A stretch of 40,575 nt of DNA from a virus, in the IMG/VR virus record IMGVR_UViG_3300036852_000358, positions 1 through 40,575 of that record; one strand, 5' to 3'. Positions 5,898 to 38,997 of this stretch are shown here, in pieces. Position numbers and translations under genes: made by a program. The notes under the pieces were generated by a model that was not told the DNA's origin, ran no database searches, and saw only the letters and a program-made list of their open reading frames with translations. Within the stretch, counting starts at the first letter, position 1. Each line of letters opens with the position of its first letter.

Positions 5898-6205
5898 GGC
5901 GACCGACTCCGGATGGGCACGCGCAACGGCGTGCTCAGAGGGTCATCGCAAAACGCAGGCGAATCGTGGCTGCTGCCCCCGAGTCGAGAGACTCCGGTGG
6001 AACACTCGGGGTGTTCCCTGCCTTTCAGCAGAGCGGCCTACATCGAGGTAGGCTCCGGCAGGGACTGTGCCGATACCGTCCAAGGTGACGGATGGATCGG
6101 GACGTTGTCAAGAACCTTCTTGCAAATCCCTGAGGCCGATACAGAAACTGAGCGCCACCCTCCGCGCGAAAGTGGACTCGCCGAAACCGCGGGGTGTTCC
6201 CCCTC
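5898..6205 (-). promoter_or_regulatory. Hairpin-rich leader upstream of the capsid gene
   Basis: This 308-bp gap has no convincing gene. On the plus strand it contains three perfect inverted repeats: GAGTC-4-GACTC (5981-5994), GGAACAC-5-GTGTTCC (5999-6017) and GCCTAC-6-GTAGGC (6036-6053). The 12-mer CGGGGTGTTCCC occurs at 6007-6018 and again at 6190-6201. A TTGACA hexamer reads toward the capsid gene at 6111-6106, but its -10 is poor. I infer a late promoter with operator or terminator hairpins. The exact start site is unknown. Confidence 0.55.
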
Positions 6206-6601: not shown

Positions 6602-6816
6602 TGCCACCTCGGCACTCCGGGGATGCTCGCGACACCACGGATCCAGCCGATGACCGCGAGCAGCCGCCACCACTGGTAGCGGTTGCCGATCCAGCGCAAG
6701 CCAATGATCGGGCGCAAAGGATTCTCGGGTACGGGCTTGTGGGTGAGCCGCTCCAACAGGGGCCCGTCGCCTCTGGCCATCCCCTCGTTCAGCTGTCGCT
6801 CTGCTTCGCTCATCAT
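6589..6816 (-). CDS. Small aromatic-rich protein, possibly membrane-associated
   Basis: 75 residues from ATG 6816 (or the adjacent ATG 6813). The second half is Trp/Arg-rich and hydrophobic (IGNRYQWWRLLAVIGWIRG), which could be a short membrane-interacting helix. The stop overlaps the next minus gene by 13 bp, so they are probably coupled. It is divergent from the lysis genes across a 62-bp gap containing a palindromic operator. Function is unknown. A membrane role is inferred from composition. Confidence 0.5.
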   Translation of the reverse strand: MMSEAERQLNEGMARGDGPLLERLTHKPVPENPLRPIIGLRWIGNRYQWWRLLAVIGWIRGVASIPGVPRWQCPL

Positions 6817-6835
6817 GCCCCGATGGTATCACCCC

Positions 6836-6879
6836 GGGTGCAATTTGACCCAGGCCCTGCACAGGCGCAAACTGGGTCA
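6836..6879. promoter_or_regulatory. Palindromic operator and large inverted repeat between divergent genes
   Basis: GGGTGCAATTTGACCC at 6836-6851 resembles the hyphenated palindromes at 8734-8750 and 38439-38454. TGACCCAG (6846-6853) also pairs with CTGGGTCA (6872-6879) across 18 bases. The TTGACC inside reads as a possible -35 toward the plus-strand lysis genes. The gap lies between genes starting at 6816 (minus) and 6879 (plus), so a divergent operator is the natural reading. Confidence 0.6.
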
Positions 6880-8276: not shown

Positions 8277-8394
8277 TCGGCCGTTTTTTCGCGGATCGGC
8301 GCCGCTCGTAGCGCCGCACCCACCATTGCAGGATGAGGCACGCCCACCACCCCAGCAGCCAACCCGCGCAGAAGTCGGGCCAGATCCATGTCAC
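8266..8394 (-). CDS. Small Trp-rich membrane protein
   Basis: 42 residues from GTG 8394, which overlaps the upstream stop (GTGA) and follows a GAAGGGG ribosome site. A single hydrophobic, Trp-rich segment (FCAGWLLGWWACLILQWW) is followed by a very basic tail (RRYERRRSAKKR), giving a predicted membrane protein with a cytoplasmic basic tail. Small proteins like this can be holin-like. It is convergent with the plus-strand cassette and overlaps it by 11 bp. The short length keeps this tentative. Confidence 0.5.
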   Translation of the reverse strand: MTWIWPDFCAGWLLGWWACLILQWWVRRYERRRSAKKRPTSA

Positions 8395-8582
8395 CCCTTC
8401 CCCTGTCTCCGCGGCGCCCTCGGGTCCGGCTCGGTCCCAAAGACCCGGAGCCACTGAGCGATCTCCGCCTCATACCGGAACAGCTGCAGGTCCCGGGCAC
8501 ACTTGGCGCACAGCGACCAGGGCCTGCAGCGGCAGGAGCCGGGCTCGGGGCGATCTGTCAGGTCGAGGGTAGGGGTGTTCAT
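8391..8582 (-). CDS. Small zinc-ribbon-like protein
   Basis: 63 residues from ATG 8582, behind a GAGG site eight bases upstream. Cysteines in SCRCRPWSLCAKCARD form a zinc-binding knuckle in the middle. The C-terminus is basic (RAPRRQGKG). The stop overlaps the downstream GTG gene. It lies below a 184-bp intergenic region with a large inverted repeat and an operator copy. Function is unknown. It is one of about ten small Cys-rich proteins in the genome. Confidence 0.6.
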   Translation of the reverse strand: MNTPTLDLTDRPEPGSCRCRPWSLCAKCARDLQLFRYEAEIAQWLRVFGTEPDPRAPRRQGKG

Positions 8583-8766
8583 GGTCGTGTCCTCGGGAGG
8601 CCTTGCCCCGCGCGCATGATGCTTCACCGGTAATAACCGCGCACTAGCGGCGTTGGCAGCTGGCACCGGCGCGCGGGCAAGGCCCGCTGAGGTAGCGCCC
8701 CGGACCCGATCAAGCTCGATCGAGCCCGAGGAGCTGGGTCAATTCTGACCATGGGGCGGGTCAGTG
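8583..8766. promoter_or_regulatory. Intergenic region with a large inverted repeat and an operator copy
   Basis: No gene is seen. A near-perfect inverted repeat pairs 8599-8615 with 8669-8684 (arms of 16 bases, one extra base in the left arm), enclosing about 53 bases and the small stem CGGT-AATA-ACCG (8628-8639). A perfect 12-base palindrome GCTCGATCGAGC is at 8714-8725. The shared operator GGTCA-ATTC-TGACC is at 8737-8750 and carries the TGACCCAG octamer on the minus strand at 8741-8734. A terminator plus promoter/operator for the downstream minus genes is the likely reading. Confidence 0.55.
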
Positions 8767-9247: not shown

Positions 9248-9457
9248 CTACCGCCGAGGAGGCCTCTTGCCCATCGCCACGAGTCGCGCCCGCTCCTCTT
9301 TCAACAATCGGCGGATGAGATCCGACACGCTCACGAGCAAGTATTCTGCCAAGGCATCGATCTCCGCGTGCTCCTCTGGGGTGACCCGGGCTCGCACATA
9401 ACTCATTGACAGAGAGGTCGTCCCGATGCGAGCGCCTCCGCGTTTTCTCGTAGTCAC
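9248..9457 (-). CDS. Ribbon-helix-helix DNA-binding regulator
   Basis: 69 residues from ATG 9457. After a basic N-terminus, the segment SYVRARVTPEEHAEIDAL and the helix DLIRRLLKEERARL match the ribbon-helix-helix fold (Arc/CopG type), in which the beta strand VRARV inserts in the major groove. It is divergent from the excisionase/integrase operon across a 462-bp region with several palindromes. It is the best candidate for a lysogeny regulator. No other repressor gene is visible. Confidence 0.7.
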   Translation of the reverse strand: MTTRKRGGARIGTTSLSMSYVRARVTPEEHAEIDALAEYLLVSVSDLIRRLLKEERARLVAMGKRPPRR

Positions 9458-9919
9458 GTTTGGTCACCATTAGCTTGCGCGACTTATGTTGCGTGGTCAA
9501 ACTCACACGGGTGATACCAGAAACCCACATGCGCGTACCGATTCGCGCGAGTGTGTCAAATGAGTCTGGCGCGTTCCGCGATGGTACCGTAAACAGGTTT
9601 CACTCAGTGAGTCGTCGCCAATTGCAATCCCTGCAAACAGGGAGGCGGGCCGCGAAGATCACCGAGTGCCCCGGGCGAGTGCCGCCAATTGCACGATATT
9701 GGAACGACGGTGTGACCGGCAACGGTGGGCGCCGTTCGGCACTCGGGGTGGGGACGATCAGAGGGGAATAGGGGTTGGCTACATGACGATCAGGGCAGCA
9801 GCGATTCCGGACGTAGCCGTAGCGGGCCTGCGGTATCACAAAGTAACCCCCCCCCCCAAGCGGATAAGTAATCCGCGCGGTCGGCGTTGCGATCTGGGCT
9901 GCCCGAATCGGGGGCCCGA
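9458..9919. promoter_or_regulatory. Divergent regulatory region between regulator and integration operon
   Basis: No gene is seen over about 460 bp. It contains TTTGACA- and TTTGACC-type -35 boxes reading left (9559-9554 and 9500-9495) and palindromes ACTCA-G-TGAGT (9602-9612) and CCCTG-4-CAGGG (9629-9642). GCCAATTGCA is repeated at 9617-9626 and 9684-9693. A run of 11 C (9847-9857) is followed by a stem GCGGAT-5-ATCCGC (9860-9876). This is probably the lysis-lysogeny control region. The binding partner of each site is unknown. Confidence 0.5.
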
Positions 9920-10336
9920 ATGAGCGGTGCACTCGAGCAATTCCCGCTCCTGATGGCCGCGCTCAAGGACGAGCTCCGTGCCGAGCTCATCCTCGAGATG
10001 CGCAAGGGACTCTGGTTCGATCAGGGACCTGGGCCGCAAGCGTCCATCCTCGGGCGCAATCGCCACGTGCAGGCCTGCCAGAGGCTCATCCGCAAAGACA
10101 GCCCCGACGCCTACTACGATGCCTCGACGGGCCAGTGGTGGCTCCGACAAGGCGCGGTCGACCGGGAGATCCTCCGGCTGAACCGGAAGCAGGCGCAGAA
10201 GCTGCCCGAGAAGGCGGCCCCGATGGCTCCGGTGGTAGCCGAGCCACTTCCCCTGGCCAAGGCCGAGCCCTCGGACTTCGAGGGCGAGACGGGCGTCTAC
10301 GAGCGGGCGCTGCTCCAGAGGGTGGGGCTGCGATGA
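9920..10336 (+). CDS. Excisionase-like helix-turn-helix protein
   Basis: 138 residues from ATG 9920; an in-frame TTG at 9887 is less likely. The segment GRNRHVQACQRLIRK, followed by a WWLRQGAVDREIL stretch, resembles the winged-helix excisionase/HTH layout in which an N-terminal helix pair is followed by a strand and wing. The C-terminus is Pro/Ala-rich. It opens the plus operon that leads to the integrase, which fits an excisionase. The 4-bp ATGA overlap couples it to the next gene. The excisionase role is inferred. Confidence 0.55.
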   Translation: MSGALEQFPLLMAALKDELRAELILEMRKGLWFDQGPGPQASILGRNRHVQACQRLIRKDSPDAYYDASTGQWWLRQGAVDREILRLNRKQAQKLPEKAAPMAPVVAEPLPLAKAEPSDFEGETGVYERALLQRVGLR

Positions 10337-10629
10337 GCCAGCCACTGCTTCGTGGCAGCTGCATGGACTACGACGCGATCGTGGCTCGCGCCGTCGAGAT
10401 GGCCCGCAAGAGCCCCGACGAGGTGCGCCGCATGAACCTGAGCCCCCGCGAATCCTGGCAAGTGGCGCTCGCGGCCGCATCCCTCGGGGCGGGCCCCTCC
10501 CGCGAGCTGACCGATGAGCTCTTCGAGGCCGTGCTCGACTTTGGAACGTTGGCTTTTGGCGAGCCCTGTTCCACTTCGGAACCGGCTTGCGTCGCGTCCA
10601 ACGTGGTTCAGCTTCGAGGGAAGATATGA
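10333..10629 (+). CDS. Hypothetical protein before the integrase
   Basis: 98 residues from ATG 10333 (ATGA overlap). Mostly helical and mildly acidic, with a Ser/Pro-rich centre and a C-terminal NVVQLRGKI tail of the kind often seen ending phage regulators. No cysteine cluster, membrane segment or enzyme motif is seen. Overlap on both sides puts it in a tight translational unit with the excisionase-like and integrase genes. Function is unknown. Confidence 0.65.
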   Translation: MSQPLLRGSCMDYDAIVARAVEMARKSPDEVRRMNLSPRESWQVALAAASLGAGPSRELTDELFEAVLDFGTLAFGEPCSTSEPACVASNVVQLRGKI

Positions 10630-12377
10630 CCCTCACTCCCAAGCGCACCGGCTTCGAGATCCGCCTCCGGTTCGGCAAGGGTCAACGCGACCGGTTCACG
10701 CTCTCGACCCTCGACGAGGCCCTGGCGCTCGCGCTCGAGCCGCGCATGGAAGCGATGGCCAAGAGGTTCGCCGACGCCACGAGCGACAAGGCGCGCGAGC
10801 AAGCGCATGGCCTGCTCAAAGAGGCGTGCCTCGTCGCGAGCGATCCGAAGAAATTCGCCGCCGTCGAACGGGTGGTGAGCAAATTGTGTGCGGAGGCGGC
10901 TGCTGACACCCCCCCGGCAGTCGCCTCCGCACCTTCTACGTTCCGGGACGTGGCCGAACTCTGGACGAGCGGCAAGCTCACCGAGCTGTACCCCGACCAC
11001 GACCGCTGCCCGCCAAAGGACGCACAGGCCCGCAAAGAGGACCAGGGGATCGTCTCGACGTTTTTCCCCGCGCTCGGGGCCAAGCCCATCGCCGCCCTGG
11101 CCCACGAGGACATCGACGCTGCCCGCAGGCTCATCCCGAAGGACTTGCACCCCAATACCCGGCGCATCTACGTCGTCAAGCTCCGGTTCGTTCTGCGCCT
11201 GGCCGAGAGCCCGCTGCGCATCGTCGAACGGGCGGTTCAGGTCGACGTGCCCAAGCGCAAACCGAGCAACCTCTTCGGGTATCTCTACCCCCAAGAGGAG
11301 GCGCAGTTGCTCGGGTGCCAGGGCATCCCGCTCGTCTACCGCATGCTCTACGGCTACCTCGCCCGCAACGGCTGCCGCGTCGGCGAGAGCCTCCAGCTCA
11401 CCTGGGACCATATCGATCTCGAGACCGGCGACATTCACATCGACAAGCGCTGGACCAAGACCAGGGTCGCCCGAAAGTGGGTGCTCGACCCGGACGTGCT
11501 CGCGGCGTTCGCGATCTATCACCGCGTCCTCGGCAAACCCGAGGGCCTCGTGTTCACCGGGCGGACCCGCAAGGCCATCCGCGCCGGCACCATCTGGGCG
11601 CGGTTCATCAAAGACCTCCGGGAGGCAGGGGTCACCCGCAAAAGCATCCTCGACGGCGCCGACGGCATCAACCCGATCCGGGTGCATGATCTCCGGGCCT
11701 CGTTCGTGACCCTCTCGCTCCGGGGCAAGCGGGACCTCAAATGGATCATGACCCGCACCGGTCACGAGACGCTCGGGGTGCTCAAGGGCTACGACCGACT
11801 CGTCCAGGATGCCGAGGAGCACCGGTTGGCCACGTGGTTCGATCCCATGGATCGGGCCATCCCCGAGCTGCGCACCACCGCCCTGGGTGGGCCAACTGCT
11901 GGGCCAATGGTGGGCCAACCCACCAAAACGCTCGGTGTTTCTGGCCCATTTCGATCGTTCATCACGGAGCCTCGATCCGAGGAGAGCCAGGCAAAAACCT
12001 CGGGGAAAACGCTAGTCGCTCCTGCTGAAACACCACTTTGGCCCACCTCGGGCCCAGCTGAATTTAAGGGGGTGGGCCAAGTTGGCCCACCCTTGTCCAC
12101 AGAAGTGGAGGTTGTCCCGTCCTCCGTCGGGGGGGTGGGCCAGGTTTTGGACACCTGTCCAGAGGAGCGGAATCCGTCCCCGTCGGCTCCTCCAGAGCCC
12201 GCCGAGAGCGTCGTCGATCGGGCCCTGGCGAGCGCTCTCGCTGCCGCGCAACAGGCCCAGCAATGGGACCTCTGCCAGGAGATCGTCCGGGAGCTCTCCG
12301 AGCGTCGACGGGCCCGGCTGGCCCCGGGCGTGACCTCTCTGAGCGATGCGCGCAAGAAGCGGGAGGAGAAGCCGTGA
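10626..12377 (+). CDS. int: Tyrosine recombinase (integrase) with a long C-terminal extension
   Basis: 583 residues from ATG 10626 (ATGA overlap). Residues about 130-210 look like the SAM-like core-binding domain. The catalytic set is present: Arg251 (NGCRVGESLQLTW), a beta-hairpin Lys (KRWTKTRVARKWV), His354-x-x-Arg357 (HDLR), His380 (TGHETL) and the nucleophile Tyr389 (KGYDRL). The domain ends near residue 400, but the protein continues for about 180 residues of Gly/Pro/Ser-rich and then helical sequence. The extension is encoded by DNA rich in GGTGGGCCAA repeats. The last residues (SLSDARKKR) recur at the end of the next protein. Site-specific integration is the known role of the family. 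Confidence 0.9.
   Translation: MTLTPKRTGFEIRLRFGKGQRDRFTLSTLDEALALALEPRMEAMAKRFADATSDKAREQAHGLLKEACLVASDPKKFAAVERVVSKLCAEAAADTPPAVASAPSTFRDVAELWTSGKLTELYPDHDRCPPKDAQARKEDQGIVSTFFPALGAKPIAALAHEDIDAARRLIPKDLHPNTRRIYVVKLRFVLRLAESPLRIVERAVQVDVPKRKPSNLFGYLYPQEEAQLLGCQGIPLVYRMLYGYLARNGCRVGESLQLTWDHIDLETGDIHIDKRWTKTRVARKWVLDPDVLAAFAIYHRVLGKPEGLVFTGRTRKAIRAGTIWARFIKDLREAGVTRKSILDGADGINPIRVHDLRASFVTLSLRGKRDLKWIMTRTGHETLGVLKGYDRLVQDAEEHRLATWFDPMDRAIPELRTTALGGPTAGPMVGQPTKTLGVSGPFRSFITEPRSEESQAKTSGKTLVAPAETPLWPTSGPAEFKGVGQVGPPLSTEVEVVPSSVGGVGQVLDTCPEERNPSPSAPPEPAESVVDRALASALAAAQQAQQWDLCQEIVRELSERRRARLAPGVTSLSDARKKREEKP
11885..12142. repeat. Cluster of GGTGGGCCAA-type repeats inside the integrase 3' extension
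   Basis: Copies or near copies lie at 11885-11895, 11900-11907, 11909-11918, 12071-12080 and 12134-12142 on the plus strand. On the other strand they lie at 11942-11948, 12038-12047 and 12082-12091; a partial copy is at 12050-12056. 12070-12092 forms a perfect inverted repeat with 11-base arms and one central base. Because the copies occur in both orientations and different codon phases, the conservation is at DNA level. Arm-type integrase sites with attP, or replication iterons, are possible. Confidence 0.6.
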
Positions 12378-13096: not shown

Positions 13097-13341
13097 ACAA
13101 CGGAGACGTATTCGGCTTTCGCATGCCCCCGCTACTCGGCACGCCACAAGCCCCAACCGTGGACCGCTCCACCCACCGGGAGCGCGAGATCGAGATCAAG
13201 CAAGTGAGCGGCGGGTTCATCGTTCGCCTCGTCGGCGGGGGCACCGAGTGGCATCAGCGCGTGGCCACCAACGAGGATGTTCTCGTGGGCATCGTGCGGG
13301 GGTTCTTCAACGGCACCCTCGACGCAAAGGAGACCCCGTGA
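13093..13341 (+). CDS. Hypothetical protein (unknown)
   Basis: 82 residues from ATG 13093 (ATGA overlap). The middle has a beta-like stretch (IEIKQVSGGFIVRLVGGG) and the C-terminus is helical. No cysteine cluster, membrane segment or enzyme motif is seen. It is coupled to the ribbon-helix-helix gene by a GTGA overlap. No family is recognised. Confidence 0.6.
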   Translation: MNNGDVFGFRMPPLLGTPQAPTVDRSTHREREIEIKQVSGGFIVRLVGGGTEWHQRVATNEDVLVGIVRGFFNGTLDAKETP

Positions 13342-13514
13342 AGAAGAAACGCAAGCTCGACTCCATCCACGTCCGGCTCGACCCGGATCACGAAAAGAAG
13401 CTCTCGGCGATCATGGACGCGATGGAGCCCCTGGTCGGACAGGTCAACCCGTCTCAGGCGGTGCGGTTCGCGATCCACAAGGCCTTCGAGCGGATGGAGA
13501 AGCCGGCGGCATGA
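13338..13514 (+). CDS. Ribbon-helix-helix-like small regulator
   Basis: 58 residues from GTG 13338 (GTGA overlap). IHVRLDPDHEKKLSAIM followed by the helix QAVRFAIHKAFERM fits a strand-helix-helix DNA-binding fold of the CopG type. It is a second small regulator beside the one at 9248-9457, and precedes the replication-initiator-like gene. It may regulate the early operon or the origin. The fold is a pattern judgement. Confidence 0.55.
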   Translation: MKKKRKLDSIHVRLDPDHEKKLSAIMDAMEPLVGQVNPSQAVRFAIHKAFERMEKPAA

Positions 13515-14338
13515 GCTGGCTCCGCCTCGACGACGACATGCTCGACCACCCCAAGTGGGTCCGGGCCATCCGAGACGGCGGGAGCGCGGCGCTGCACATG
13601 TGGCTCGCCCTGTGCTCGTGGTGTTCGAGGCACCTGACGGACGGGGAGATCCCGGCAGACATCGTCCCGACGCTGACCCAACAGTGGCGCGCTCGTGACC
13701 GAGCCAAAGCCATACAAGCGCTCGAGTCGAGCCAGCTCGTGGCCATCACCGAGCCGGGAGCGATCCACATCGTGGACTATCTGGAGCGCAATCCAAGCCG
13801 AGCCGAGACCCTAGAGCGCCGCAGTCGGAAGGCCGACAACCAAAAGAATCACGCGGTTAGGAAAAAGCTGACCGGTCAGCGTCCAGTGGTGGTGGTCGAC
13901 GACGGACCGGCGCCTGACCCTCTCCCGATCCCGTCCCGTCCCGATCCCGTCCCGACCCCAGAAGAGGGAGAGAGAAACGCGCGCGCGCCCGGTGGTTCAC
14001 CTTCGGAGGTCAGGACCCTGCAGCCGTCGAAACGGGAGCGAGCCCGTGAAGCCGCTGCCGTCGCGCTCACCCGGTTGCGCCACAAGTACCCGCCCGATTT
14101 CGAGCCCACCGTGGACAACCGCTCCCGCGCGGTCGAACTCGGGCTGACCGAAGCCGAGACCTGGCAGCGCTGGGACGAGTGCCGGGACAAGCGCTACCCA
14201 GCGCCCTTCGACGACCCGGTGGGTCAATTCAATCGCGAGCTCGCTTGGGCCAAAGCCGACAAGGAAAAACGCATGTTCAAGACCCAGACCGAGCGCGAAG
14301 CGTTCGAGATGCCGGGGCGGGAGAGGAGACCGGCGTGA
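13511..14338 (+). CDS. Replication-initiator-like protein
   Basis: 275 residues from ATG 13511 (ATGA overlap). The N-terminus (MSWLRLDDDMLDHPKWVRAI) and the helices after it resemble the winged-helix start of phage replisome-organiser/DnaD-type proteins. A Pro-rich linker around residues 137-160 is encoded by tandem CCCGA/CCCGT units. The C-terminal half is helical and basic (ALTRLRHKYPPDFEP). Lambda O carries its origin in the same way, so this gene may hold the phage origin. No helicase or polymerase gene is present, so host replisome recruitment is likely. Function is inferred. Confidence 0.55.
   Translation: MSWLRLDDDMLDHPKWVRAIRDGGSAALHMWLALCSWCSRHLTDGEIPADIVPTLTQQWRARDRAKAIQALESSQLVAITEPGAIHIVDYLERNPSRAETLERRSRKADNQKNHAVRKKLTGQRPVVVVDDGPAPDPLPIPSRPDPVPTPEEGERNARAPGGSPSEVRTLQPSKRERAREAAAVALTRLRHKYPPDFEPTVDNRSRAVELGLTEAETWQRWDECRDKRYPAPFDDPVGQFNRELAWAKADKEKRMFKTQTEREAFEMPGRERRPA
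13924..13955 (+). repeat. Tandem pentamer repeat in the initiator-like gene
   Basis: Two tandem 16-base units (CCCGATCCCGTCCCGT and a copy differing in the last base) are built from CCCGA/CCCGT pentamers. They encode a proline-rich linker. Repeats inside an initiator gene can be origin iterons, as in lambda O, but the unit is short and the protein linker alone could explain it. Confidence 0.4.
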
Positions 14339-14958
14339 GCCCCTACTACTCGCACGCGGGGATCGAGATCTTCCACGGGGACGCCCGAGCGCTGGCCCCG
14401 CTCATGGATGCCGCGGTGCTCAGCCTGGATCCGCCCTACGGCACCAACGAGCACGGCGGCTATGGTCGGCGGCAACTCGGGCTCGAGACCATCGAGAACG
14501 ACGCGGATACTTCCCTCCGTGACGACCTGCTCGCATGGTGGGGCGCTCGGTGCGCGGTCGTCTTTGGCTCCCCGCGTCGACCCGAGCCACCGGGCGAATG
14601 GATGTTCCGCCTCGTGTGGGACAAGCGCTCGCCCGGCATGGGCTCTCCGTGGCGCTGGCAACACGAGATGATCTACCTCCGCGGCGAGTGGCACAACCAG
14701 CCCGGCATCGCCTCGGTGTTGAGCTTCTCCGTTGGTGGAGCGATGCGCGACCGGTGGCACCCGCATGAGAAGCCGATCCCGCTCATGTGCGCGCTGCTCC
14801 AGGGCACGACGGGCAAGATCCTAGACCCGACCATGGGGAGCGGCTCGACGCTCCGCGCTGCCAAAGAGCTAGGCCGTGAAGCGATCGGCATCGAGATCGA
14901 CGAGAAGCGCTGCGAACAAGCGGCGATCCGGCTCTCACAAGAGGTCCTATTCGCATGA
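14335..14958 (+). CDS. DNA methyltransferase, first copy
   Basis: 207 residues from GTG 14335 (GTGA overlap). Motif IV DPPYG is at residues 32-36. The SAM-binding motif (ILDPTMGSGSTLRAAKELGR) follows at about residues 160-180, the beta-class order of amino-methyltransferases. DPPY is typical of N6-adenine or N4-cytosine methylation. Its N-terminus MSPYY and C-terminus QEVLFA recur in the methyltransferase at 17505, as do the start and stop DNA. No endonuclease partner is seen. It may protect phage DNA. Confidence 0.8.
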   Translation: MSPYYSHAGIEIFHGDARALAPLMDAAVLSLDPPYGTNEHGGYGRRQLGLETIENDADTSLRDDLLAWWGARCAVVFGSPRRPEPPGEWMFRLVWDKRSPGMGSPWRWQHEMIYLRGEWHNQPGIASVLSFSVGGAMRDRWHPHEKPIPLMCALLQGTTGKILDPTMGSGSTLRAAKELGREAIGIEIDEKRCEQAAIRLSQEVLFA

Positions 14959-15308
14959 CCGACGAAGAACTCGAGGCCTCCCTCGCCTCCCGTCCCCGCC
15001 CTCCCGCTCCACCGATGAAGACCCGCCCCGTGAGCGAGATCCTTGGCTGCTCGGATGACCACGCACTCGCAATCGCCAAGAGCAAGGGCCTCATCGACAG
15101 GGACAACATGCTGCATTGCTGGCACTGCAAGGCGATCTGTGACTGGCACGTGAGCCTCCACTGCTTCGATTGCCGAGCAGGAGCCCCAGCGCGCAAGCGG
15201 GAACGTGAGCAGCAGGAGCGCGAGCGCGCAGCGGCAGAGCGGCGGGAACAGGAACAATCGCGGCCCGTGCAGAGGGTCGGCGGGAGGAGTTTTCGCGATG
15301 GGTACTAG
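14955..15308 (+). CDS. Zinc-finger and coiled-coil protein (unknown)
   Basis: 117 residues from ATG 14955 (ATGA overlap). The centre has a Cys/His cluster (CWHCKAICDWHVSLHCFDC) consistent with zinc binding. The C-terminus is a highly charged coiled coil (REREQQERERAAAERREQEQ). It overlaps the queC start by 11 bp. No enzyme motif. Function is unknown. Confidence 0.6.
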   Translation: MTDEELEASLASRPRPPAPPMKTRPVSEILGCSDDHALAIAKSKGLIDRDNMLHCWHCKAICDWHVSLHCFDCRAGAPARKREREQQERERAAAERREQEQSRPVQRVGGRSFRDGY

Positions 15309-15927
15309 ATCGCTGGTTCTGCTCTCCGGTGGGCTCGATTCCGTCGCCGCCCTCCTGCTAGAGACCAAGTGGGGCGCAGACAACGTAGAGGCGGTATTCT
15401 TTCGCTACGGGCAACCGATGGCCGCGCGCGAGTTCGCTTCCGCGCGCCGGGCCTGTGAAGCGTTATCCGTGACGTTGCACATGCGGAACCTGGAGCCCGT
15501 CTTTCATGCGTTCACGGCGGGACTCATGGCCTCACCGGCGAGCGGCAAAGACGACTCCGGAAAGGACACGGCGTTTTTGCCGGGCAGGAACGCGGTTCTT
15601 ATCGCCGTGGCCGCGAGCATGGCCGACCAGTCCTGGCGCGAAGGAGCCTCTCTCATTGTCGGATTCAATCGCGGCGACGCGAGCGGCTTTCCGGACTGTC
15701 GAGCGGAATTCTGTGGGCTACTCGAGGACTCGCTTCGGTCAGGCGGGTCGAGTGTTCGCATTCGTGCCCCCTGGGTGAAGCACACGAAACGCGCGATCGT
15801 CGAGTGGGTGCGGCGGGAGACCCCGACGGGGATCGCGCTGCTGGAGCAAAGCTGGTCCTGCTACTCGGGATCGGGCCCGTGCGGGGTCTGTACCGCGTGC
15901 TTGAGTCGAGCGGATGCGCTCGCGTGA
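15298..15927 (+). CDS. queC: QueC, 7-cyano-7-deazaguanine (preQ0) synthase
   Basis: 209 residues from ATG 15298, behind a GGAGGAG site. The PP-loop ATP site SGGLDS is at residues 10-15. The C-terminal zinc cysteines are Cys188, Cys195, Cys198 and Cys201 (CYSGSGPCGVCTAC). QueC converts 7-carboxy-7-deazaguanine to preQ0 using ATP and ammonia. FolE, QueD and QueE are not seen in this genome, so the precursor probably comes from the host. It is directly followed by DpdA, with a GTGA overlap, so the product is most likely used on DNA. Phage queC-dpdA pairs are known to make deazaguanine-modified genomes. Confidence 0.9.
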   Translation: MGTRSLVLLSGGLDSVAALLLETKWGADNVEAVFFRYGQPMAAREFASARRACEALSVTLHMRNLEPVFHAFTAGLMASPASGKDDSGKDTAFLPGRNAVLIAVAASMADQSWREGASLIVGFNRGDASGFPDCRAEFCGLLEDSLRSGGSSVRIRAPWVKHTKRAIVEWVRRETPTGIALLEQSWSCYSGSGPCGVCTACLSRADALA

Positions 15928-17335: not shown

Positions 17336-17508
17336 TGACCGCTCACCCGCGCACCGCGCATCCACCCGGGAGCAAGACCCAGTGCAAGCGCTGCCCGCGC
17401 GTGTTCAGGCGGAGGCGCGGCCGACGCTTCTGCATGGTCTGCTCCGGCTATCGGATCCCGAAGCGTCTACGCGACGAGCTCGCGCGCAATCCGAGGGAGA
17501 CGCCGTGA
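17335..17508 (+). CDS. Small zinc-ribbon protein
   Basis: 57 residues from ATG 17335, overlapping the previous stop (TGATG). CKRC and CMVC (about 17 residues apart) form a zinc ribbon within a very basic stretch (VFRRRRGRRF). It is coupled to the second methyltransferase by a GTGA overlap. DNA or RNA binding is likely. Function is unknown. Confidence 0.6.
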   Translation: MTAHPRTAHPPGSKTQCKRCPRVFRRRRGRRFCMVCSGYRIPKRLRDELARNPRETP

Positions 17509-18191
17509 GCCCCTACTACGACCACGGCGGGATCACCCTCTATCTCGGCGACTGCAGAGAGATCCTTCCCACCTTGGGCAAGTTCGATCTGCTGCTCACA
17601 GACCCGCCATACGACTTCGGGCACTACGCAACGGACACCAAGCCCTCGATCGCTCTCATCATGGAGAGTGCCCCAACGGCTGCACTGTGGGGATATCCCG
17701 AGGTTCTCTGCGGGTGGTGCATCGAGATCGGGCGCGCGCCCGACGAGTGGATCACCTGGTGGCCCACGAACGCTGCCGCCAAGACGGGAGGGAGACACGC
17801 CAACGTGCCGCGCCAGGTGGAGACGGTGGCCATCTTCGGGAACCGGCTGTTTGCCGATCTGGTGCGCGAGCCACGCGCCCGCGGAGTGATTCTCGGCAAA
17901 GAACTCTCGGAAACTGTGCGCGCCTCGGATGTGTGGCGCGACGCCAGCCCTGGAATCGGGTTCAACGCGCGCGAGCGCCTCCACCCAAACGAGAAGCCCG
18001 TTTCCGTCATGGGGAAGTTACTCGATCTATGCGCTGCACCCGGCGCCACCGTCGTCGACCCCTACATGGGCTCGGGCCCCGTCGCCAAGGCATGCAAGGA
18101 TCGCGGGCTGCGATACGTCGGGATCGAGCTGGTCGAGAAGTATTGCGAGATCGCCGCCAAGCGCCTGGCCCAAGAGGTCCTCTTCGCATGA
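17505..18191 (+). CDS. DNA methyltransferase, second copy
   Basis: 228 residues from GTG 17505 (GTGA overlap). Motif IV DPPY is at residues 33-36, and the SAM motif (VVDPYMGSGPVAKACKDRG) near residues 185-205. MSPYY at the start and QEVLFA at the end match the first methyltransferase, as does the start/stop DNA, so the two are paralogs. The middle differs, so the recognition sequence may differ. No cognate endonuclease is seen. Confidence 0.8.
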   Translation: MSPYYDHGGITLYLGDCREILPTLGKFDLLLTDPPYDFGHYATDTKPSIALIMESAPTAALWGYPEVLCGWCIEIGRAPDEWITWWPTNAAAKTGGRHANVPRQVETVAIFGNRLFADLVREPRARGVILGKELSETVRASDVWRDASPGIGFNARERLHPNEKPVSVMGKLLDLCAAPGATVVDPYMGSGPVAKACKDRGLRYVGIELVEKYCEIAAKRLAQEVLFA

Positions 18192-18221
18192 CCCATTCCG
18201 GGAATCGACACCGACCCGAGC

Positions 18222-34337: not shown

Positions 34338-35425
34338 GCGAGTGGCTTCCAGCCGAGGCTACCGGCGGCACCCAAGGCCTTCTCACCCGCACCGAGGAAG
34401 CCCATGACGTAGTCCATCACGCCTTTCTTGTTGGCCTCGGCCGCAGCCTTGATTTGGCCCGCGACCTGCTGGTCGATGTGATGGCTCTGGGCAATCTGAT
34501 CGAAGATGTCCATCTGCGTTTTGATGTCGAGAGAGGCGTAGTTGAACCCGAGCTGGTTGATGTCGTTGATCATCCCGCCGAGCAACTGTTGTCCCTGAAG
34601 GTCGGCGTTGATCTGCATGCCGGTGTCGGCGATGACCCGATCGATGGCTTGCAATCCGATCTGCGCGGTGTCGGTAGCGAGGCCCGCCTCTTGCCCGAAG
34701 GCCCCCGTCGCGGTCTGACCGATGGTGTTGGCGATACCTCCCGAGGTCTGCGCCTGCTGAATACGGGCCTGGAACATCTGCAGCTCTTCGTTGCGCGCCT
34801 GCTCCGCCGCTTGCCCGGCAATGGCAGGGGTCTGGTCGACGACCATGCCCCGGGCCGCGGCGACCGCTCCCGCTCCGCCCCGAGCGTTGGCTGCCAGGGT
34901 ATTGCCCATGGCCAGACCTCGCTCCTGGTAGCGCTGTTGCAAGGCCTGCTGCTCGACGGGATCGATCTTCAGGTTCATCGACTGCTCGAGCACCCGGCGC
35001 TGATCGGCTAGGGCTTGGTCTCGGGCGGCGCGAGCCTGGTCTGTTTGCGAGGTGTCGACCGTCGGAAGGGTCTGGCCCTGGACTTGCCCTGGCGTCTGGT
35101 TGGCGCGCGCCTTGTCGTACGCTCCGGTAGGGTCGAGCCGCGGGTCTAAAGCGGGCGCGTTGTTCGCGTAGTTCGTCCCGGCTGCCGCGAGCGATTGTCC
35201 CGCTGCCCACTGGTCGTACGCGCTCTGCTGCCCCGAGGGGATGACCCACGATTGCGTGCCCCGGTTCCACGCCCACCCGGGCCAACCGTCAGGCTTTGGC
35301 GTATCGGCCATGGCTTGGTCGTTGGCCGCGTTTGCGGTGGCGGCTTGCTGGGCGTCGTTGTACGGGTTGCTCGTCGCCTGACCCGTCGCCGGGTTGATTT
35401 CGTTTCCTGCTCTGTCAACGGCCAT
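34334..35425 (-). CDS. Internal virion protein (Ala/Gln-rich)
   Basis: 363 residues from ATG 35425, overlapping the upstream stop (TGATG); the longer open frame above it is not used. The start (MAVDRAGNEINPATGQATSN) is polar, then Ala/Gln-rich helices (VEQQALQQRYQERGLAMGNT) and a Gly-rich C-terminus (MGFLGAGEKALGAAGSLGW). One of three consecutive ejection-type proteins. Function inferred from composition and order. Confidence 0.6.
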   Translation of the reverse strand: MAVDRAGNEINPATGQATSNPYNDAQQAATANAANDQAMADTPKPDGWPGWAWNRGTQSWVIPSGQQSAYDQWAAGQSLAAAGTNYANNAPALDPRLDPTGAYDKARANQTPGQVQGQTLPTVDTSQTDQARAARDQALADQRRVLEQSMNLKIDPVEQQALQQRYQERGLAMGNTLAANARGGAGAVAAARGMVVDQTPAIAGQAAEQARNEELQMFQARIQQAQTSGGIANTIGQTATGAFGQEAGLATDTAQIGLQAIDRVIADTGMQINADLQGQQLLGGMINDINQLGFNYASLDIKTQMDIFDQIAQSHHIDQQVAGQIKAAAEANKKGVMDYVMGFLGAGEKALGAAGSLGWKPLA

Positions 35426-38406
35426 CAGTGCGTATCCCTTGCTGGCAAGCGCGCCATGCCGGGCGCCGTCGTGGTCTCTAAGGTGATCTCGTTGATGCGA
35501 ATGCCCTCGGTGCCGGACCCGCCGGTGACGTTGAACCGCAAGCCAAAGCGCGAGCACTCCCGGAGCGGCGGGGCCTTTTCGAGATTGACGGCCGCATTGG
35601 CCACGTAGTTGTTCGCCGTGGTGAGCGTGAAGGTCTCGATCGTCGTGTAGTTCAGGCCCGAATCGAAGGTGATATCGAGCGTGGCTGTGCAGTCGGCGAT
35701 CTTGGTGCCGACGACGCCGACTTTGACGATCTCGCCCCAACTCATGCCCGTGCCGAAATCGAAGTCGAACGTCTCGAAGCTCTGGTTCGGCATCGCCCCC
35801 GTCCCGGGGGTGGCGTGCTGCTGGAAGACCGCTCCCGCGCTGTCCACGTAGCAGAGCCGCCCCTGGTACTCGGCCAGGGCCTTGGCGTAGACGTCGTCGA
35901 TGAACCACGCCTTGCGCCGGAGGTCATAGACCAGGACCTCGCCTGCGTTCGCTGCCGCGTTCTCCACCGCGAAGGCCACGGCGTTCTGCTTGCGGAGGTA
36001 ACAGCTCGCCAAGACCACGGGGTAGGTCACGAGCTCGTCCCGGATCGCTTGCCCCACGGTCCAGTCGACTTCCCCGCGCTCGCCGAGAAAGCACAGTTGC
36101 TCGTCGTCTCGTTGGAAAAAGATCCCAGCATCGGTCTCACACAGGCTCTTCCAGCCGTCGACGCCGTTGATGCCACCTTCGCGCGAGAGAAAGCCCGAGA
36201 AGGTGAATTCCCCCTGGCCCGAATGGTCAGGGCCTGTCCCGGTCCAGAGCGAGATGGTCCGGCGGGTGAAGGCGACGAGCTGGCCCCCGATCGAGGCCAC
36301 GGCCAGGATCGCCTCATCGGTCGAGCCCTGGTACTGCGGCAGATCCGCATCGGAGAAGTGGGTGGCTTCCGCCGGGAACTTCAGCTTGCTCTGCAGCCAC
36401 TGGTTCGTGCGCGGGAGTCCGCCGATGGCTAGGCGCTCGTTCGTCGCCCAGAGGTAGGAGGCGGGAGGCGGGGCCTGGTGCGGGATCGGGGTCTGGCCCT
36501 GGGTGTAGATCGTCCCTTGGGTCTCGCCGAGCGTGCGCAGAGCCGCGTCGGAAGTGGTGAGCGTAAACGAGATGGCCGCGCCCCAGTTGCTCGAGCTCGA
36601 CGGGCAAGGGATGTGCGTTTCGCGGTACAGGTTCTCGCCTGCGGTCTTGTCCGCGAGAGCCGCCGTGCGACAGATCACGATCCGGTAGGTCGAGCCGTCC
36701 CAGAAGCCAGAATTGCGAAAGCTATGCAGGCCCCCGATGGTCCCGGTGATGGTGTCGTCCGCGGCACCGGTGGTGATCGAGTAGACGATCGACGGCGGGC
36801 CCCGGTGCACGTTGCCGCGCGCATCGACCATCTCGGGGAAGACCTGAATGAAGTAAGCGGCCGAGCTCGTGATCGCCCCGGGCGCCGTGTTACTCGAGGC
36901 GAGGGAGTAGACGATCGGCTTTTCCCCCCAGCTGATCTCGAACGGGAACCGCCCGTCGAAGATCAGAGGCAATGAGCCGGCGATGTGCAACAGGCCTCCC
37001 TGTACGGCGGCTTGCCGGCGCTCGGCCACGCCGTAACTCCACTCGGCGACGGCCGCGGTGCACTCGAGGTCGTTGTTCTGCCGCAGGCTGGTCGAGTAGA
37101 AATACCCCGAGACGCTATCGCGGGTGAGGCTGCCGATTCTGCCCGGGAATTCGAACGCGGTATCGAAGTCCCGGAACCAGACGGGGTAGCTCTGGACGTC
37201 TTGCACGCCCATGCCACTCACGCCGAAGGCAAAGCTTTGGGTTCCTTGCGAAAACCCGGCAAAAACGAGGTTGATCGGCGCGATACTCGTGCAGAGCATC
37301 TCGGTCGCCAGTTGCAGATCGCTCCAAGTGGCGGTGTCGACTTGGGTCCCGACGAACACGGCCTTGCGCGGGGTAGTGCTGGTGATGTTGCCGGCCACGG
37401 TCACGCCTCCACCGCTGTCGACGAACACCGTGATGGCCCCCGTCGTGGCGGTTGCGCTCAGCGTGGTGGGCCCGGCGATATCGGTCCCGGCGGTGAGAGA
37501 GATCGTCTTGTACTTGAGCAGCGAGTCGGCGTTGTCGAGGTAGCCGATGAGGATCACGTTGGCCGTGCTGTCCGCGGCCACGGTCAGGTAATTGGGCACG
37601 GTCGCGTTGATCGTGCGGGTCATCTGCTGGACGTTGCTATCGTTGAAGTGCTTGACGAGGATATCGCCCGCCAAGCAGTACACGACCACGTAGCCACCCG
37701 TCGCGCCCGCGACCGCGCACGCGGCGAACACGGTCTTATCGGTGGTGAGCGAGAGCAGCGCGGTCGAAAAGGCCTGGTCCGTCGAGGCCGTAAACGAGCA
37801 GGCCTGAATCAACAGACCCGTCCCCGCGTCGAGCCCGAAGACGTAGAACTTGTGCCCCACCGTGACCAGCGCCACCGCTGCGCCGGTCAACGGGAGGTGC
37901 TCGAACACGAGCGTCGCATCGTCTCGGGTGCGAAAGACGAGCGCGTACACCAGACCCACGGTCGCGCTGGTCACCGAGTAGGCGTGCACGGCGATGCCGT
38001 TGTAGACGGCGACGGTCGAGGTCTTGACGCCGCCGCTCTGGTCGGGAGGCGAGCCGATCTCCCGGAGCCGGGTGCCGCTCGGCAGATGCGTCGAGGTCTC
38101 CTTCCAGCCCTTCACCTCGCCCACGTACTCGAAGAGCGTGATGCGGTTGGCGGTGCCGGCACCACTCAGGTGCCCGAGCGCAAACAGGCGATCGTCATAG
38201 GAGAGCAAGTCATGGGCAACGAGCGTGCTCGAGCCTGCTGCATACACGCCTGTCGCCAACGCCGTGAACCCGGGCCTGACCCCGAGCTCGTTGTCCCGCC
38301 TCAGGCGGAGGTTGACGACCCGCCGCAAGAGTCCTTCTGTAGGCAGAAGCTTTCTCGCGGCCTGCTGGTTCGTCCCGCCGTCGAGGCGAAAGCGCGTGAG
38401 GGCCAT
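35425..38406 (-). CDS. Tail hub/nozzle-like beta-propeller protein
   Basis: 993 residues from ATG 38406, behind AGGGGA; the TTG at 38445 is less likely and would overlap the operator. The start (MALTRFRLDGGTNQQAAR) and VVNLRLRRDNELGVRPGFTA match large phage tail proteins with a beta-propeller, such as T7-type nozzle or stabilisation proteins. The middle contains repeating Thr/Val beta segments (ATVPNYLTVAADSTANVILI). It is in the right place for the tail of a short-tailed phage. The promoter candidate upstream contains the shared palindrome. Confidence 0.6.
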   Translation of the reverse strand: MALTRFRLDGGTNQQAARKLLPTEGLLRRVVNLRLRRDNELGVRPGFTALATGVYAAGSSTLVAHDLLSYDDRLFALGHLSGAGTANRITLFEYVGEVKGWKETSTHLPSGTRLREIGSPPDQSGGVKTSTVAVYNGIAVHAYSVTSATVGLVYALVFRTRDDATLVFEHLPLTGAAVALVTVGHKFYVFGLDAGTGLLIQACSFTASTDQAFSTALLSLTTDKTVFAACAVAGATGGYVVVYCLAGDILVKHFNDSNVQQMTRTINATVPNYLTVAADSTANVILIGYLDNADSLLKYKTISLTAGTDIAGPTTLSATATTGAITVFVDSGGGVTVAGNITSTTPRKAVFVGTQVDTATWSDLQLATEMLCTSIAPINLVFAGFSQGTQSFAFGVSGMGVQDVQSYPVWFRDFDTAFEFPGRIGSLTRDSVSGYFYSTSLRQNNDLECTAAVAEWSYGVAERRQAAVQGGLLHIAGSLPLIFDGRFPFEISWGEKPIVYSLASSNTAPGAITSSAAYFIQVFPEMVDARGNVHRGPPSIVYSITTGAADDTITGTIGGLHSFRNSGFWDGSTYRIVICRTAALADKTAGENLYRETHIPCPSSSSNWGAAISFTLTTSDAALRTLGETQGTIYTQGQTPIPHQAPPPASYLWATNERLAIGGLPRTNQWLQSKLKFPAEATHFSDADLPQYQGSTDEAILAVASIGGQLVAFTRRTISLWTGTGPDHSGQGEFTFSGFLSREGGINGVDGWKSLCETDAGIFFQRDDEQLCFLGERGEVDWTVGQAIRDELVTYPVVLASCYLRKQNAVAFAVENAAANAGEVLVYDLRRKAWFIDDVYAKALAEYQGRLCYVDSAGAVFQQHATPGTGAMPNQSFETFDFDFGTGMSWGEIVKVGVVGTKIADCTATLDITFDSGLNYTTIETFTLTTANNYVANAAVNLEKAPPLRECSRFGLRFNVTGGSGTEGIRINEITLETTTAPGMARLPARDTH

Positions 38407-38438
38407 TCGGTCCCCTAGCCTATTCTCCCGCGCGCCCC

Positions 38439-38456
38439 GGGTCAAATATGACCCAG
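38439..38456. promoter_or_regulatory. Palindromic operator between divergent tail and moron genes
   Basis: GGGTCA-AATA-TGACCC (38439-38454) with the extended octamer TGACCCAG (38449-38456). The site lies between genes starting at 38406 (minus) and 38512 (plus). In the minus direction TTGACC reads as a -35, with TAGGCT 17 bases later and an AGGGG site before the tail gene. This is the best-formed promoter candidate of the three operator sites. Confidence 0.6.
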
Positions 38457-38511: not shown

Positions 38512-38997
38512 ATGAGAGCGATGCTCCTGGGCCTGCTGCTCGCCGCGTGCGCGACCGAGACCGAGACCGCGCCGGTCACCGACACTGCCTCACATGTGTT
38601 CGTGGTGGAGGGCGAGCTCGCCGACGCCGCGAGCCAGGCCGTGGAGCTCTGGACGAGCGCGAGCGGGGGAGAATTCGCGCCCGTCCTCGTCGCGGGGCAG
38701 GCCCCGGGCATCCAGATCCGCTTGGTCGATGCCGTCGACGACTGCGGTGCGACTGGCGAGCTTTTCGGGTGCTGGAAGGGCCACGACCAGGTCATCGAGA
38801 TCGCGCGCACGCTGGCCCCCGAGCTCCGGGCCTCGACCATTGCTCACGAGATCGGTCACCACCTCGGTCTCGAGCACGCCCAAGGGGGCGACGTGCTGAT
38901 GGACCCGCACCGTTCCAGGTTTCACCGCTTGGCCCCGTGTGTCAGCCGCGAAGACGTCGAGGCCGCTGGCTTCGAAGGGATCGGGGCGTGCCTGTGA
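38512..38997 (+). CDS. Lipoprotein zinc metalloprotease (metzincin-type), moron
   Basis: 161 residues if ATG 38512 is used; ATG 38494 and 38521 are alternatives. MRAMLLGLLLAAC is a lipoprotein signal with Cys13. Residues 112-122 read HEIGHHLGLEH, the HExxHxxGxxH zinc site of metzincins, followed by a Met-turn (VLMDP, Met130). A Cys pair is at 78 and 87. It stands on the opposite strand to the late genes, between fibre and tail genes. Lysogenic conversion or self-protection are possible roles. The substrate is unknown. Confidence 0.75.
   Translation: MRAMLLGLLLAACATETETAPVTDTASHVFVVEGELADAASQAVELWTSASGGEFAPVLVAGQAPGIQIRLVDAVDDCGATGELFGCWKGHDQVIEIARTLAPELRASTIAHEIGHHLGLEHAQGGDVLMDPHRSRFHRLAPCVSREDVEAAGFEGIGACL

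Follow-up and report, generated by a model that had tools for sequence, protein, structure and literature searches.

A two-fold symmetric sequence, GGGTCA-N4-TGACCC (with GGGTGC as its left arm at the lysis site), is predicted to be an operator that overlies the core promoters of the lysis, structural and protease genes, the late operons of this phage. At the lysis and structural promoters the right arm would also be the -35 box (TTGACC), with a weak -10 box 17 bases further on and the start codon 5-10 bases after that. A dimeric or tetrameric DNA-binding protein would most likely bind both arms and block RNA polymerase, and the late operons would be held off together until the bound protein was removed. 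This picture of protein binding, repression and transcript starts is predicted from the sequence, conservation and positions of the sites and from their promoter-like layout. Joint gating of the late operons by a single dimeric regulator that is probably a repressor, acting at an operator over their core promoters, is proposed with modest confidence. Control of the lysis genes and, in most members of the group, the structural genes by one regulator is probable, because the 16-base motif sits on the start signals of those genes. The kind of switch is ordinary and well supported; it is new for this phage group.

The window (the whole 40,575-nucleotide stretch that was analysed) is an entire terminally redundant phage record, with a 127-base direct repeat at both ends. 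Terminal repeats of the same length are found in three relatives (G002, G003 and G007). The structural genes are read leftward in two blocks, one spanning 38406 to 23749 and the other starting at 6816 and continuing past the start of the record. The lysis genes (from 6879) and the early genes (from 9920) are read rightward; a tyrosine integrase is among the early genes, so the phage appears to be temperate. With this layout, each structural operon has one of the sites at 38439 and 6836 at its head, and so do the lysis operon and the protease gene.

Coordinates of the palindromes, putative promoters and candidate regulatory genes in the window
Feature	Position	Strand	Details
GGGTCA-AATA-TGACCC, perfect palindrome	38439-38454		Intergenic; leftward structural operon on one side (first gene 35425-38406), rightward lipoprotein-protease gene on the other
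GGGTGC-AATT-TGACCC, imperfect palindrome	6836-6851		Separates the leftward tail operon from the lysis operon
TGGGTCA-ATTC-TGACCAT, palindrome	8735-8752		Upstream of a small minus-strand operon (8582 to 8266); no clear -10
Inverted TGACCCAG octamer	6872-6879	-	Overlaps the lysis start codon
Putative structural-operon promoter	38417-38445	-	TTGACC 38445-38440, 17-base spacer, TAGGCT 38422-38417, ATG 38406
Putative lysis promoter	6845-6878	+	TTGACC 6845-6850, 17 bases, CAAACT, 5 bases, ATG 6879
Putative leftward tail-operon promoter	6823-6851	-	Weak -35 GGGTCA 6851-6846, 17 bases, TACCAT 6828-6823
RHH gene promoter	9464-9500	-	TTGACC, 17 bases, CAAGCT; without palindrome
RHH protein, candidate reader	9248-9457	-	Divergent from the early operon, a typical immunity-repressor position
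Small cysteine-rich protein (CxC...CxxC), candidate reader	8394-8582	-	First gene after the 8737 palindrome
First early-operon gene, possibly winged-helix/Xis-like, candidate reader	9920-10336	+	
Tyrosine integrase	10626-12377	+	Pfam PF00589 E=8e-13; PHROG integrase E=1e-30

Relatives (G001-G008 and G011) were found by protein searches of viral contigs and genomes. G011 is syntenic with the window throughout, mostly at 40-86% protein identity (47% for the tail protein). In G003, most early and lysis genes are more than 80% identical to those of the window, many more than 95%, and the structural genes are unrelated or distant. Sites shared within these exchanged blocks are therefore not independent; the G003 sites at 6836 and 8737, where most neighbouring genes are 82-99% identical, were left out as independent conservation. 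In the collections searched for cultured relatives, the portal protein had no match and the endolysin only matches below 36%. A whole phage of this group (L208, MGUL01000118.1) is found in a MAG labelled Elusimicrobia, a doubtful host assignment.

The original prediction described three palindromes, at 38439-38454, 8737-8750 and 6836-6851, and an inverted octamer at 6872-6879, and all four are present as described. Exact matches to GGTCAN4TGACC number two in the window (8737 and 38440), both intergenic. The expected number in first-order Markov genomes was 0.04, and none of 300 simulated genomes had two. The arms of the 6836 copy pair at only four of six positions. A looser count of palindromes, with up to 3 mismatches, showed no excess over chance. 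The three palindromes are real rather than products of chance.

The octamer TGACCCAG, considered as a unit, is weak alone: there are 5 copies (1.4 expected; 2 of 100 shuffles reach 5), one of them inside a gene (3014). Its copy at 6872, offered as a fourth instance of the motif, is there in the window but is not conserved in G002, G004, G007 or G011, and is probably incidental. An RNA hairpin or terminator is not favoured either – there is no T-run, and at the two best sites the palindrome is upstream of the predicted transcript start.

Conservation was scored with TGGGTCA-N4-TGACCCA at 12 or more of 14 positions in five phages (the window, G002, G004, G007 and G011). There were 11 sites, more than for any of the other 419 permutations of the palindrome (mean 0.71, with 7 for the runner-up). 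When spacers of 0 to 11 were compared in the same five phages, only a spacer of 4 was enriched. Eight of the 11 sites are intergenic and near gene starts; the other three (G002 27046, G007 35635 and G004 18085) are coding or gene-start coincidences. In a collection-wide scan for TGGGTCAN4TGACCCA, most of the matches listed are what chance would give in a collection of that size.

A scan of the genome and its relatives, which had been suggested as a check, found the palindromes conserved at 38439 and 6836. At the tail/protease site (38439), GGGTCAAATATGACCCA is identical in the syntenic G011, with diverged flanks. At the lysis site (6836), GGGTGC[AG]A[TA]TTGACCC is kept in G011, G002 and G007, with near-identical DNA in G003, and the counterpart in G004 is GGGTCATATTTGACCC. 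The left arm GGGTGC is therefore a conserved variant and not decay, since it is kept in diverged relatives. Further sites are found at other late operons: GTGGGTCATATTTGACCCAC at the divergent promoter between the protease and lysis genes of G004, CTGGGTCAAATGTGACCCAG upstream of the portal-side operon of G003 (with another at its tail operon), TGGGTCAAATGCGACCCA upstream of the leftward tail operon of G011, and sites at the tail and portal/terminase starts of G007. G001 and G005 lack the motif, and G002 has it at lysis only. The proposal of a common site at several operons was borne out by the permutation and spacer tests and by this conservation: the same symmetric site occurs at more than one promoter beyond chance and is kept at the equivalent operons of G011, G004, G003 and G007. 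At 6075-6090 the window has CCGTCCAAGGTGACGG where G003 and G011, placed by neighbouring shared sequence, have GGGTCAAATG(T/C)GACCC. This is possibly a palindrome changed on both arms.

The 8737 copy stands apart from the other two. It lies between two minus-strand genes, with no -10 at the right distance, and its sequence is known in one other phage only (G003), where the adjoining DNA has been exchanged with the window in nearly unaltered form. This copy may be incidental, or it may be an operator whose promoter is not recognised. Between this palindrome and the small minus-strand operon, an inverted repeat (8585-8700, GGCCTTGCCC...GGGCAAGGCC) could form a large hairpin.

The layout of the structural-operon promoter is the same in G011. 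At the putative tail-operon promoter the sequence reads as 6 bases from TACCAT to the ATG at 6816, and G011 has TATCAT at the same spacing. Since an arm of the palindrome is 17 bases from this leftward -10 too, a single -35/operator would serve the tail promoter and the divergent lysis promoter. A regular expression (TTGAC[CAT], 16 to 18 bases, [TC]ANNNT, 3 to 10 bases, RTG) had 12 matches in nine genomes. Nine of these are at motif sites, two belong to the RHH promoter and one is elsewhere. The Markov null was 0.16-0.23 per genome, and TTGACC was first of 180 permuted hexamers. All of the matches except one (18 bases) have a spacer of 17. At the motif sites the start codon is 5-10 bases past the -10, which suggests that leaders are absent or very short. 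The idea that TTGACC doubles as a -35 is supported at 38439 and 6836, where the layout is above chance, and is weaker at 8737.

The RHH gene promoter (9464-9520) has GGTATCACCC and TTGACC-17-CAnnCT in common with the lysis promoter, and lacks the palindrome. Across all viral contigs, the lysis-promoter pattern had 11 matches – five in group members or their near-copies, five in one unrelated family and one in an unrelated contig – and no new independent phage was found with it. In the unrelated family (L259 2144, L261, L263, L266 and L268) a perfect pattern lies inside coding sequence, a warning against annotating from the pattern alone.

The -10 boxes are weak (CAAACT, TAGGCT and CAGTAT), and this leaves room for activation of the late genes, in which a zinc or HTH protein of the phage would bind the palindrome and recruit RNA polymerase. 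The small cysteine-rich protein encoded beside the 8737 site, which is found in all full-length motif-bearing phages (weakly in G002), is a further point for such an activator. The position of the palindrome makes this reading unlikely: its centre is ca. 36 bases before the predicted start, over a good -35 at lysis, while in the tail promoters of G003 and G007 it lies on a -10-like hexamer close to consensus (TAGAAT or TACAAT) and stops a few bases short of the ATG. One activator is not likely to work from both positions. A steric repressor fits better, because the site lies across the -35 of some promoters and across the -10 of others.

The constant TTGACC-17 layout would also suit an extended -35 read by a phage-specific sigma factor or a modified RNA polymerase, the palindrome having no separate reader. 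G003 and G011 encode an HTH/sigma-region-4-like protein (94% identical), and a second, weakly sigma-like family is present in G003, G007, G008 and G002. This explanation is improbable: neither family was found in the window, a sigma element does not need the left arm and yet both arms are conserved, and the palindrome covers the -10 in G003 and G007.

A host transcription factor could be the reader, so that a host signal would tune late expression of the phage. The phage proteins considered are candidates only, and the predicted RHH contact residues differ among phages with the same site, both in keeping with a host reader. We consider it quite improbable, as different palindromes occupy the same place in some relatives, and in the 3.6-Mb MAG that contains G011 (which may not be the host) a related pattern occurred 3 times off the phage contig, against 3 for a reversed-pattern control. 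Chance palindromes around ordinary TTGACC -35 boxes would agree with the slight enrichment of the octamer alone and with the ordinary frequency of matches at up to 3 mismatches, but are hardly credible in view of the permutation and spacer tests and the identical site in G011.

Three protein families track the motif-bearing phages: the RHH, cysteine-rich and Xis-like proteins of the table. The RHH protein is the first-choice candidate reader, followed by the cysteine-rich protein; the two RHH proteins named in the original prediction, this one and a second (13338-13514), are only candidates. The first RHH protein matches Pfam NikA-like at 27.2 bits (cut-off 27), RHH_1 at 18.6 bits (under the cut-off of 20.5) and a PHROG Arc-like repressor (E=0.0023), and is present in G002, G003, G007 and G011. 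A monomer model predicts helices at 27-40 and 44-61 and no strand. Its predicted beta-strand residues (Y-V/I-R-A-R) are common to the window, G003 and G011, whereas G007 and G002 have other residues despite carrying the same sites. The cysteine-rich protein has strong matches in G003, G007 and G011 and a weak one in G002. Strong matches to the Xis-like protein are found only in G003, G007 and G011, and a search with the protein found G003 and G007 only. Its predicted structure is of low confidence (pLDDT 64) and had no significant PDB match. In G005, a LexA-like HTH reading frame was seen by eye at the RHH position.

The proposed module resembles several known systems in part. Arc/Mnt-type RHH repressors (P22) are small, and the short symmetric operators to which they bind lie across core promoters. 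Here too an RHH gene, as a candidate reader only, is at an immunity-like position, but phages with the same site differ in its strand residues. In P2 and P4, one symmetric site common to all late operons is read by Ogr/Delta zinc proteins, and the P2 sites are upstream of the -35, at about -55. The present phage is likewise temperate with a symmetric site at its late operons and a cysteine-rich protein as a candidate; unlike in P2/P4, the site overlaps a near-consensus -35 and the cysteine spacing differs. As in a sigma-70 promoter, TTGACC is close to TTGACA and is followed by a 17-base spacer and a -10-like hexamer, but the -10 boxes are poor matches and the -35 is part of a conserved palindrome. 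Cluster A mycobacteriophages (L5, Bxb1) have one regulator and several similar sites genome-wide, with sequences that differ between heteroimmune relatives; their stoperators are asymmetric, mostly off promoters and oriented with transcription, and block elongation (PMC6550527). Several similar sites are spread across the present genome as well, but they are few (3-4), palindromic and on late promoters, and for the last two reasons are not stoperators.

G001 and G002 carry another dyad at the tail start (TGATAA-N7-TTATCA and a near match), and in G005 the sequence at the lysis position is altered, consistent with swapped specificities. The fullest version of the proposal is distinctly doubtful as a whole: joint direct repression of the lysis and structural operons through an operator that is also the -35 of nearly leaderless late promoters, a single -35/operator being common to tail and lysis, with an undescribed small phage protein as reader and sister regulons of swapped specificity. 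The operator model offers a testable late-gene regulon, with predicted starts and three named candidate regulators, for phages that have no close cultured relative in the collections searched. If it is right, control of the late genes, lysis included, is exerted directly by an operator bound at each promoter and not through antitermination, and immunity groups among metagenomic phages can be predicted from the operator set.

A few other genes of the window may be of interest. A QueC-like gene (15298-15927, Pfam E=6e-38) is a hint of deazaguanine DNA modification. The regions 14331-14960 and 17501-18193 contain DNA stretches that are 71-74% alike, with a DPPY motif in their translations, and appear to be paralogous DNA methyltransferase-like genes. 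The lipoprotein encoded at 38515-38997 has a metzincin motif (HEIGHHLGLEH) and matches Pfam Matrixin just above the cut-off; its homologues adjoin tail or lysis genes in G001 and G004.
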